A stretch of DNA of 64,000 bases from Caulobacter sp. 73W (GTDB lineage Bacteria; Pseudomonadota; Alphaproteobacteria; Caulobacterales; Caulobacteraceae): NCBI RefSeq assembly GCF_041021955.1, contig NZ_CP158375.1, positions 3,646,501 to 3,710,500 on the forward strand, written 5' to 3'. Shown here in pieces: positions 53,582 through 56,997 of the stretch. The notes beneath the pieces were generated by a model. That model ran no database searches. It worked only from the letters and a program-made list of their open reading frames with translations, and had not been told where the DNA came from. The position numbers and the translations under genes are program-made. Each line of letters opens with the position of its first letter. Position 1 is the first letter of the stretch.

Positions 53582-55000
53582 TCAGGTGATGAACGCGAAC
53601 GGGGAGACGGGCTTGTTCATCTCGTCGACCAGCAGGGTGCGGTTGATCGGCGCGGCGGCGCGCTGCGGGCAGACCGGACGCTCACAGATCCGGCAGGCGG
53701 GGCCGACCTCCGTCACCGTCGGGCCGGCGAGGTCGAGGCCGCGCGCATGGACCAGCTTCGAGGCGTATTTCAGCTCGCATCCCAGACCGATGGCCAGCTC
53801 GTCCTCCTGGCCGGAATGCAGGCCGGCCACCCGGCGCACGGTGCGGGCCAGGGTGAAATAGCGCTCGCCGTCCGGGGTCTCGATGATCTGGGTGATCGTG
53901 CGGCCCGGGGTCTTGAAGCTGTCGTGGACGTTCCAGCGCGGGCAGGTGCCGCCGAACCGCGAGAAGGGAAAGGCGCCGGCTGCGAACCGCTTGGAGATGT
54001 TTCCCGCCGCATCGACGCGGACCATGAAGAACGGCACGCCCCGGCTGCCGGCGCGGCCCAGGGTTGTCAGCCGCTGGGCGGCCTGTTCGAAGCTGATGCC
54101 GAACCGGGCGCGGACCCGTTCGATGTCGTAGCCGCTGGTTTCCATCGCCTCCAGGAAAGGGGCGTAGGGGGTCATGATCGCGGCGGCCAGATAGTTGGCC
54201 AGGAAGACCTTCAGCAGCTGGCGCGTGGCGCGGTCCGGCGGGCTGAAGCGATCGGCCATGGCGTTGAGCTCGGCGCCGTGCTCCAGCAGTCCCAACTGAT
54301 AGGCCATGGCGAAGGTGCGGCTGGCCGAGGACAGGGTCTCCGACACCATCAGGCGTTTGCGGTGGTGGTCGTAGCGGCGCAGCGAGGCGCTCATCACCTC
54401 GGCCGGCATGACCTTGGTCTGGACGCGATGCTCCTGCTGCAGCCGCTGGCGCAGGGAAGCGGCGAGGTCGTGGGGCTCCGCCGCCAGCGTCTTGCTGATC
54501 GCCTCGGCGGCGGCTTCCAGTTCCTCGAAATAGTTGCGGTGGGAGGCGGCCAGGTCGCGGACCCAGTCGGTGGGCTGCGAGGCGCCGGCGACGGTCTCGC
54601 CGTTGCGCTCCACCGCGCCCAGGTCGATGAGCCGGCCGCGATCCAGATAGCCGCGATAGAGGCGCATGATCGCCTCGGCCACGTCGGGCGAGGCCTCGAG
54701 CAGTTCGGCGATGTCGTGCCGGCTGACGCGGAGGTCGGCGAACATGCTGTCGGAGAACACCTCCTCCAGCCCCGCGCCGCCGCCGGGATCGTCCGCCGAC
54801 AGGGAGCGCAGGTCGATGTCGAACGCCTCGGCCAGCCGCAGCAGAACCTGGGCGGTGACCGGCCGCTGGTTGCGCTCCAGCAGGTTCAGGTAGCTGGCGG
54901 AGACGCCCAGCTGTTCCGCCGTCGCGGCCTGGGTCAGGCCGAGGTCGCGGCGCAGTCTGCGCAGTCGTCCGCCGAGGAAGAGTTTCTTGTCGCCGGCCAT
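53582..55000 (-). CDS. RamB/ScfR-type regulator of acetate/glyoxylate genes
   Basis: A 472-residue short-chain-fatty-acid regulator. HTH (XRE) at about 10-65: LGLTQAATAEQLGVSASYLN. An IrrE/DUF955-like domain occupies the middle and a DUF2083-type C-terminus has CPRWNVHDSF and CRICERPVCPQ, a cysteine cluster that may bind metal or sense redox. Relatives (RamB, MccR, ScfR, PrpR) control isocitrate lyase, malate synthase or propionate genes. Divergent from aceA, so it probably regulates 55141-58595. Confidence 0.92.
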   Translation of the reverse strand: MAGDKKLFLGGRLRRLRRDLGLTQAATAEQLGVSASYLNLLERNQRPVTAQVLLRLAEAFDIDLRSLSADDPGGGAGLEEVFSDSMFADLRVSRHDIAELLEASPDVAEAIMRLYRGYLDRGRLIDLGAVERNGETVAGASQPTDWVRDLAASHRNYFEELEAAAEAISKTLAAEPHDLAASLRQRLQQEHRVQTKVMPAEVMSASLRRYDHHRKRLMVSETLSSASRTFAMAYQLGLLEHGAELNAMADRFSPPDRATRQLLKVFLANYLAAAIMTPYAPFLEAMETSGYDIERVRARFGISFEQAAQRLTTLGRAGSRGVPFFMVRVDAAGNISKRFAAGAFPFSRFGGTCPRWNVHDSFKTPGRTITQIIETPDGERYFTLARTVRRVAGLHSGQEDELAIGLGCELKYASKLVHARGLDLAGPTVTEVGPACRICERPVCPQRAAAPINRTLLVDEMNKPVSPFAFIT

Positions 55001-55001
55001 G

Positions 55002-55033
55002 TGTCACCGTGTAAAGAATTTACACTAGTGACA
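55002..55033. promoter_or_regulatory. Nested operator between the regulator and aceA
   Basis: TGTAAA, GAA, TTTACA (55010-55024) sits inside TGTCAC ... GTGACA (55002-55007 and 55028-55033). The inner dyad extends to GTGTAAA/TTTACAC. It begins 2 bases before the regulator ATG, suiting autorepression, and lies 108 bases before aceA. Confidence 0.65.
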
Positions 55034-55140: not shown

Positions 55141-56760
55141 ATGACGACGCGCAAAACCTATGCCGAGCACCGCGATGAACTGCTTCGCCGCTATCCGTCG
55201 GCCGTGACGCCGGGCGGCGTCGCGATCGACGACATCATCCAGCTGCGCCTGCAGAACACCTTCCCCACGCACCTGGACATCGCGCGGGCCATGGCCCCGG
55301 TCATGCGGGCGGACATGGCGGCCTATGACGCGGACTCGTCGAAGTTCACCCAGTCGCTGGGCTGCTGGTCGGGCTTCCACGCCCAGCAGATGATCAAGTC
55401 GGTCAAGCGCCTGCGCGGCACGACCAAGGGGGCTTATGTCTATCTGTCCGGCTGGATGGTCGCCGGCCTGCGCAATCGCTTCGGCCACCTGCCGGACCAG
55501 TCGATGCACGAGAAGACCTCGGTCGTCGATCTGATCGAGGAGATCTACGTCTCGCTGCGCCAGGCCGACGAGGTCGCGGTCAACGACCTGTTCAAGGCCC
55601 TGAAGCAGGCGCGGGAGGACGGCGACGCCGTCGCCCAGCAGGCGGCGATCAAGGCCATCGACAACTTCGAGACCCACGTCGTCCCGATCATCGCCGACAT
55701 CGACGCCGGCTTCGGCAACGAGCACGCGACCTATCTTCTGGCCAAGGAGATGATCAAGGCCGGCGCCTGCTGCCTGCAGATCGAGAACCAGGTCTCGGAC
55801 GCCAAGCAATGCGGCCACCAGGACGGCAAGGTCACGGTCCCGCGCGAGGACTTCATCGAGAAGCTGCGCGCCTGCCGCCTGGCCTTCGAGGAGCTGGGCG
55901 TCGACGACGGCGTCATCGTCGCCCGCACCGACAGCCTGGGCGCGGGCCTGACCCAGAAGGTGCCGGTCAGCCAGTCCGAAGGCGACCTGGCCGCCGACTA
56001 CATCAAGTGGCTGAAGACCGAACCGATCACCACGGATGCCCCTCTGCGCGAGGGTGAGCTGGCGATCTACAAGGACGGCGACTTCGTCCGGCCGGTGCGC
56101 ATGCCCAACGGGCTGTTCGCCTTCCAGGAAGGCTCGGGCCGCGCCCGCGTGGTCGAGGACTGCATCGCGTCGCTGACCGAGGGCGGCGCTGACCTGCTGT
56201 GGATCGAGACCGACACGCCGAACGTCGACGAGATCGCGGCCATGGTCGCGGAGATCCGCCAGGCCGTTCCGAACGCCAAGCTGACCTACAACAACTCGCC
56301 GTCGTTCAACTGGACCCTGAACCTGCGCAACCAGGTCCGCGCCCAGTGGGTGGCCGAGGGCAAGATCCATCCGGACAGCTATCCCGAGGGCGCGTCCCTG
56401 ATGTCGGCGGAATTCGACGGCACGGACCTGGGCCGCGAGGCGGACGAACGCCTGGCCCGCTTCCAGGTCGACATCGCCGCCCGGGCCGGGGTGTTCCACA
56501 ACCTGATCACCCTGCCGACCTTCCACCTGACGGCCAAGAGCATGGACGAGCTGTCGCGCGGGTACTTCGGCGAGGATCGCATGAAGGCCTACGTCAACTC
56601 GGTCCAGCGCGAGGAAATCCGTCGGGGCGTCTCGGCCGTGAAGCACCAGCACGAGGTCGGCTCGGACCTCGGCGACACCTTCAAGGAGATGGTCGCCGGC
56701 GAGCGCGCCCTGAAGGCCGGCGGCCACGGCAACACCATGAACCAGTTCGCAGCAGAGTAG
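55141..56760 (+). CDS. aceA: Isocitrate lyase
   Basis: A 539-residue enzyme splitting isocitrate to glyoxylate and succinate. The active-site loop reads DAKQCGHQDGK, the KQCGH variant of the longer ICL subfamily (as in Pseudomonas) in place of KKCGH. VVPIIADIDAGFGNE and QIENQVSD bind magnesium and substrate; TYNNSPSFNW follows. First gene of an aceA-small gene-aceB run, used on acetate or fatty acids. Confidence 0.96.
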   Translation: MTTRKTYAEHRDELLRRYPSAVTPGGVAIDDIIQLRLQNTFPTHLDIARAMAPVMRADMAAYDADSSKFTQSLGCWSGFHAQQMIKSVKRLRGTTKGAYVYLSGWMVAGLRNRFGHLPDQSMHEKTSVVDLIEEIYVSLRQADEVAVNDLFKALKQAREDGDAVAQQAAIKAIDNFETHVVPIIADIDAGFGNEHATYLLAKEMIKAGACCLQIENQVSDAKQCGHQDGKVTVPREDFIEKLRACRLAFEELGVDDGVIVARTDSLGAGLTQKVPVSQSEGDLAADYIKWLKTEPITTDAPLREGELAIYKDGDFVRPVRMPNGLFAFQEGSGRARVVEDCIASLTEGGADLLWIETDTPNVDEIAAMVAEIRQAVPNAKLTYNNSPSFNWTLNLRNQVRAQWVAEGKIHPDSYPEGASLMSAEFDGTDLGREADERLARFQVDIAARAGVFHNLITLPTFHLTAKSMDELSRGYFGEDRMKAYVNSVQREEIRRGVSAVKHQHEVGSDLGDTFKEMVAGERALKAGGHGNTMNQFAAE

Positions 56761-56772
56761 GGAGCACGCACC

Positions 56773-56997
56773 ATGGAACTGCAATTTTCCCCCACGCCGA
56801 TGCCTGATTCCAGCGACGAGCAGCGCGCCGTCCACCGCGTCGCCGAGGCGGTCCACCGCCTCAACGAAGCGGTTCGCCGCGCCACGGAAGCAGGCTATTC
56901 CGTCGAACTGGTGCGGACCTCCCGCATCCACGACGGAGCGGGCAACTGGGGCGACCAGATCGTCCCGACCGTTCGTGGCGCGACCGCCGCGTCCTGA
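56773..56997 (+). CDS. Small protein between aceA and aceB
   Basis: A 74-residue soluble protein I do not recognise. Residues ~15-45 are helical (EQRAVHRVAEAVHRLNEAVRR), then EAGYSVELVRTSRIHDGAGNWGDQIVPTV. It has no signal peptide or cysteines. 12 bases after aceA and 17 before aceB, with GGGAG upstream, so it is surely in the operon. It might bind or tune one of the glyoxylate enzymes; this is inference. Confidence 0.8.
   Translation: MELQFSPTPMPDSSDEQRAVHRVAEAVHRLNEAVRRATEAGYSVELVRTSRIHDGAGNWGDQIVPTVRGATAAS

Follow-up and report, generated by a model that had tools for sequence, protein, structure and literature searches.

The glyoxylate shunt genes of Caulobacter sp. 73W raise the question of what is made by an open reading frame of 74 codons that lies between aceA and aceB, the genes for isocitrate lyase and malate synthase A, respectively. 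From the DNA letters alone, this frame had been predicted to encode an unrecognised protein that may be a new regulator or an assembly factor of the shunt. The window, which is the whole stretch of 64,000 nucleotides that was analysed, contains the following features around this frame.

53582..55000, minus strand: ScfR/RamB-type regulator gene, divergent to aceA, with HTH, IrrE-like and ScfR C-terminal domains (PF09856, 3.4e-63)
55009..55025, no strand assigned: palindrome GTGTAAAGAATTTACAC in the scfR-aceA intergenic region with two TTTACA boxes, a candidate ScfR operator
55141..56760, plus strand: aceA, isocitrate lyase of the 539-aa PRK06498 type (NF005074, 884 bits; cut-off 446)
56761..56772, plus strand: 12-nt gap from aceA to the small gene with a GGAG ribosome-binding sequence, identical in locus L023
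56773..56997, plus strand: 74-aa SMc00767-like gene, open reading frame from ATG to TGA, matching NF050174
56998..57014, plus strand: 17-nt gap from the small gene to aceB, containing GGAGAG and of the same length in L023
57015..58595, plus strand: aceB, malate synthase A (TIGR01344, 864 bits; cut-off 594.5)

The small gene and its family

As the original prediction had it, the frame at 56773-56997 of the plus strand is tightly spaced between its neighbours, starting 12 nt past the aceA stop and ending 17 nt ahead of the aceB start, and the names given to these neighbours were confirmed by their matches to NF005074 and TIGR01344. The GGAG ribosome-binding sequence is located at 56761-56764, and 8 nt separate its end from the ATG of the small gene. 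The nearest named record is that of Caulobacter segnis (99% over the small protein), and both gaps are equal in length in the C. segnis locus, L023.

In comparisons with 22 homologs, the NG86 dN/dS values of the small gene ranged from 0.07 to 0.45, indicating purifying selection in all 22 comparisons. Third codon positions were also richest in changes in each of the 22 pairs. Because of these dN/dS values and the matches found in 20 of 61 related genomes, the 74-codon frame is, on comparative grounds, a real and conserved gene. Its short length and the lack of a Pfam family would fit a non-coding or spurious frame. Given the purifying selection, the retention of the gene in distant alphaproteobacterial families and its match to a curated NCBIfam model, however, we give this explanation virtually no chance, and a chance frame was rejected as refuted by conservation. 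A phage origin of the small gene was also considered and rejected, as no match was found at E ≤ 0.1 among 50,697 phage records.

A Pfam search with the 74-aa protein identified no family at E ≤ 1. The protein was matched by the NCBIfam model NF050174, named "SMc00767 family acetate metabolism repressor," from residue 13 to 67 and over profile positions 12-66 of 66, with an E value of 1.7e-24 and a score of 85.8 bits. Thus, the protein is not unrecognised. As its score is under the equivalog cut-off of 95 bits, it is filed here as an SMc00767 homolog of unproven function rather than as an equivalog. The NF050174 match of the control genome, that of Caulobacter vibrioides, was also below the cut-off. 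All 17 members of alignment A1, including the protein of Sinorhizobium meliloti, matched NF050174, and none of them matched another NCBIfam family at 1e-3. The identity between the window protein and the S. meliloti protein was 53% over 53 residues, and the 74-aa protein is, as judged by sequence, of common descent with S. meliloti SMc00767.

The literature search found SMc00767 named only within reference lists, among the matches listed. A 2007 J Bacteriol paper on aceA, SMc00767 and glcB of S. meliloti is said to describe SMc00767 as a 240-bp open reading frame downstream of aceA. Its mutants were reportedly affected on acetate, it was reportedly proposed as a repressor of aceA, and its conservation in other alphaproteobacteria is said to have been noted.

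Similar to the window gene, the 240-bp SMc00767 gene (CP090106.1) is found directly after aceA, and an scfR-like gene is divergent to aceA. The two proteins are also alike in length (79 vs. 74 amino acid residues), and their conserved cores are homologous. Different from the window gene, which follows an isocitrate lyase of the 539-aa type, SMc00767 follows one of 429 aa, and the two lyases are only about 28% identical. Moreover, aceB comes at once after the small gene in the window, whereas no malate synthase was annotated or found in the 8.2-kb locus of S. meliloti. The scfR-like gene of this locus (L050, about 907-2309) matched in two frames or pieces with no annotated CDS, and it is either a broken gene or the product of a sequencing error.

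Judged by its position, CCNA_01842 of C. crescentus NA1000, which is annotated as a hypothetical protein downstream of aceA, is the same gene as that of the window. CCNA_01842 and aceA are described as forming an operon in C. crescentus (PMC4551563). Of the predicted "new regulator" of the shunt, "regulator" agrees with the name of the family, an acetate-metabolism repressor, while "new" is not supported in view of the curated model and CCNA_01842. The find is thus largely an ordinary one, a homolog with conserved gene order, for which equal function is not claimed because its score is under the equivalog cut-off.

Distribution and gene neighborhoods

The 20 related genomes with the small gene, own genome included, were all among the 37 genomes of the window's genus. 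aceA was present in the same 20 of these 37 genomes, and the small gene adjoined aceA in all 21 same-genus aceA copies (Fisher p = 6e-11 for the co-occurrence, the related genomes being not independent). One genome of the genus, G002, had two copies of aceA plus the small gene, on contigs C1 and C2, and the aceA match of C1 was flagged with one TAG stop. Of the 24 genomes from the same order, eight carried aceA, and a profile search in which every candidate was scored found no small gene in any of the eight. The best candidate in them had an E value of 0.037 and was not near aceA. Their aceA was 58-77% identical, and scfR was beside the operon in at least four of them. Thus, the pathway can do without the small gene.

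Strong matches to the small-protein profile (E ≤ 2e-25) were found in at least 5 of the 385 genomes of the class sample, own genome included, and each of the other four genomes possessed an isocitrate lyase over the family cut-off. The matches of another 11 of the 16 matched class-sample genomes were weak (E 1.4e-4 to 0.0083) and likely due to chance, and they were excluded from the counts. For instance, the weak match L060 was inside an open frame of 219 residues, and the resemblance covered 26 residues only. In the phylum sample, at least 15 of 299 genomes, own genome included, had the small gene, and all were of the same class. Both counts are minimum values, since no more than 15 or 19 candidates per genome were scored initially in these two samples. 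In addition, homologs were found in 20 plasmid records from Rhizobium, Sinorhizobium, Shinella, Aureimonas and Microvirga as well as in Stappia and Paracoccus. The search for homologs that the original prediction had suggested thus revealed conservation beyond close relatives, such as in Stappia, Paracoccus, Rhizobium and Microvirga. A second match in genome G013 (L022, contig C21) was 39% identical with an E value of 5e-5 and is either a stray hit or a distant paralog; neither isocitrate lyase, malate synthase A nor scfR was found in its 1.5-kb flanks.

The regulator gene divergent to aceA was the only PF09856 match at E ≤ 1e-10 in its own genome. Its product scored 414 bits against NF038139 (RamB), which is under the cut-off of 700. 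All 20 Caulobacter-type loci (L023-L042) contained scfR together with the genes for the 539-aa lyase and malate synthase A. The small gene was found beside the gene for the 539-aa lyase in Caulobacter, Stappia, Paracoccus and Microvirga, and beside that for the 429-aa lyase in Sinorhizobium, Rhizobium, Shinella, Aureimonas, G222 and G379. The latter lyase gene was directly upstream of the small gene in 12 of the 14 non-own loci of the phylum sample. The loci of Stappia and Paracoccus also contained scfR, and malate synthase A was not found in the flanks examined. Among S. meliloti (in two frames), Rhizobium, Shinella, Aureimonas, G222 and G379, scfR was identified in five of the six, in G379 only as a stretch of 27 residues at the locus edge. 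It was also found in all three widely fetched loci of the 12 phylum-sample loci with the 429-aa lyase. Mapping the lyase types onto a tree built from 19 small proteins required three (539-aa type) or four (429-aa type) changes, with 3-4 changes in the bootstrap. No branch of this tree was starred, and three end branches were long. The tree suggests that small proteins have swapped their lyase partners.

In four genomes, G325, G624, G480 and G111, aceA did not adjoin the small gene. In three of them, scfR and the small gene form a divergent pair that is not separated by aceA (L088, L106 and L107 of G325, G624 and G480, respectively). In G325, the small gene is flanked on one side by the divergent scfR and on the other by a malate synthase G gene, which it precedes, and aceA is about 2.4 kb from the small gene on the opposite strand. 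In G624, aceA is on the far side of scfR from the small gene. G480 has a single ScfR match (E ≤ 1e-10), which is beside the small gene, and its single isocitrate lyase gene is on another contig. The small gene of G111 (L091, 4070-4303) stands alone and scored 111 bits against NF050174, over the cut-off; the locus that holds both scfR and aceA is about 764 kb away. In the 8.2-kb locus of Microvirga, aceA and the small gene are adjacent and no scfR was found. Thus, the link with ScfR is broken at two loci, those of Microvirga and G111.

These neighborhoods bear on the possibility that the small protein is a binding partner of isocitrate lyase, or of malate synthase, that influences how active the enzyme is or how it assembles. 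In most loci, the small gene comes immediately after aceA, and this position, the strict co-occurrence of the two genes in the window's genus and the place of the small gene ahead of the malate synthase G gene in G325 are consistent with such binding. However, two lyases that are only about 28% identical are accompanied by the small gene, which argues against an assembly factor dedicated to one enzyme. Moreover, aceA is not adjacent in the four genomes described above, and all eight same-order genomes with an aceA that is 58-77% identical do without the small gene. Binding to an enzyme is therefore considered improbable, and the assembly factor of the original prediction is unsupported. As the small protein tracks the pathway and its regulator and not one enzyme, a regulatory role is favored over assembly.

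TTTACA boxes and the proposed role

The scfR-aceA region of the window contains two TTTACA boxes vs. a shuffle mean of 0.05, and a near-identical copy of the palindrome GTGTAAAGAATTTACAC is found in L023 of C. segnis. At least one TTTACA box without this palindrome was present in 18 of the 19 other Caulobacter-type loci. Picked by eye from most of the regions and then counted on either strand, TTTACA occurred 19 times in 11 scfR-aceA or scfR-aceB regions (in 8 of the 11; shuffle mean 1.1, maximum 6), 10 times in the three scfR-small gene regions of G325, G624 and G480 (shuffle mean 0.7, maximum 4) and 23 times in 20 Caulobacter-type regions (in 19 of the 20; shuffle mean 1.4, maximum 6), with two loci counted in both the 11-region and the 20-region sets. 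The three counted regions outside the choice by eye, those of Shinella, Microvirga and Aureimonas, contained 4, 4 and 0 boxes, respectively. Two further regions, likewise outside the choice by eye and scanned with no shuffle control, yielded six boxes (scfR-aceA region of G111) and two boxes (scfR-aceB region of G053). TTTACA was absent from the regions of Paracoccus, Stappia and Aureimonas, from the 200 nt upstream of the lone small gene of G111 and from all 20 gaps between the small gene and aceB.

Similar to the window regulator, RamB of Paracoccus denitrificans, a class-2 member of the ScfR family, has a C-terminal domain of family PF09856, and its gene adjoins the shunt operon. Different from the 74-aa protein, RamB is a full-length HTH regulator. 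The operon there is aceB-aceA, and the part of the source available makes no mention of a small gene in it (PMC10370305). On acetate, the class-2 RamB of Paracoccus is an activator of the shunt operon, and it has been proposed to act as a repressor on succinate; it binds to two boxes as well as to CoA-ester intermediates of the ethylmalonyl-CoA pathway (PMC10370305). The two boxes of class-2 RamB are reported to have an 18-bp spacer, and this spacing was sought here. G624 and the Rhizobium loci L052 and L108 contained TTTACAA-type direct repeats at 17-18 bp, and none were found in the window. Upstream of the distant aceA of G480, two TTGTAAA-N4-TTTACAA palindromes were identified. We infer that ScfR binds the TTTACA boxes.

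AlphaFold2 with 23 sequences predicted a helix at residues 15-39 and a hairpin with strands at 43-53 and 59-68 (mean pLDDT 85.1, pTM 0.61), and the mean pLDDT of the other four models ranged from 70 to 77. The protein is predicted to have a small helix-plus-beta-hairpin fold. Seven of the 10 invariant columns of A1 (N31, A37, G41, E45, R48, R51, H53, G57, D61, and P65) are in the hairpin. Foldseek identified no match among solved structures at E ≤ 1, the best E value being 1.5. The best VIA-align row was GnsA (4xo2), whose Z of 5.3 (rmsd 4.1 over 58 residues, 10% identity) is below the meaningful level of the tool. A profile search of solved structures gave implausible partial matches only, of which the best (0.0012) covered 26 residues and was to a formylmethanofuran dehydrogenase subunit. 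The predicted model thus has no convincing match among solved structures, and this absence is no proof of a new fold.

The small protein might itself bind to the aceA promoter and repress it independently of ScfR. The NF050174 family is named a repressor, the invariant N31, R48, R51 and H53 could contact DNA, and DNA-binding MADS proteins with a helix plus hairpin were among the weak structural rows at Z 2.3-2.8. These rows, however, are under those of GnsA and cyanase (Z 3.1-3.6) and far from a meaningful Z, and Foldseek, as mentioned above, provided no match. Nor was there a usable Pfam match, the best being HVO_2928_N (0.0083, in 2 of 17) and, in the search for HTH domains, HTH_15 (0.041, in 4 of the 17 members of A1). 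Furthermore, ScfR, whose gene is divergently beside the boxes, would explain the TTTACA boxes equally well. Thus, direct repression is regarded as unlikely.

Tentatively, and with confidence a little short of even, we propose that the small protein is a negative feedback co-regulator of shunt expression, tempering aceA via the ScfR/RamB-type regulator. A co-regulator of ScfR is favored because scfR is a recurrent neighbor, in three lineages without aceA between, and because the boxes are found on both kinds of promoter. The aceA transcript probably also serves for the synthesis of the small protein, which should therefore become more abundant as aceA expression increases. It would then dampen the transcription of aceA, its target being either the ScfR/RamB-type regulator itself or the complex of ScfR with DNA, at the TTTACA boxes upstream of aceA. 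In this scheme, the repression of aceA is based on the family name and the literature, while the action through ScfR, the binding of the boxes by ScfR and the feedback logic are the inferred steps.

A broader form of this proposal, possible but to us rather doubtful, is that the SMc00767 family is a dedicated small partner of ScfR/RamB, the two proteins making up a sensing module, and is not itself a repressor of the aceA promoter. It would usually provide feedback within the aceA operon, and in some lineages a divergent scfR-small gene pair would control aceA in trans via TTTACA palindromes. The literature search found no small partner of ScfR described, among the matches listed. In Paracoccus, an ScfR-type regulator determines when the glyoxylate shunt is switched on (PMC10370305). 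The ScfR gene family adjoins shunt genes in most loci examined here. If the 74-aa protein tunes ScfR, it would provide the brake that is lacking between acetyl-CoA status and the glyoxylate shunt, and the acetate phenotype reported for S. meliloti would become a simple protein-protein question. If it does not, the protein would be an ordinary homolog of a known acetate-metabolism protein. The partnership of the small protein with ScfR is the one testable lead.

The gap between the small gene and aceB

The gap between the small gene and aceB is 17 nt in the window and L023 vs. 47-268 nt in the other 19 of the 20 Caulobacter-type loci. Eight of these 20 loci have a perfect stem of at least eight pairs in this gap. 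In C. crescentus, aceB is reported as not co-transcribed with aceA-CCNA_01842 (PMC4551563). Different from this separate aceB, the 17-nt gap of the window suggests that aceB is co-transcribed with the small gene, so that aceB may have changed from being transcribed separately to being transcribed jointly. In the window lineage, aceA, the small gene and aceB would therefore probably form one three-gene operon.
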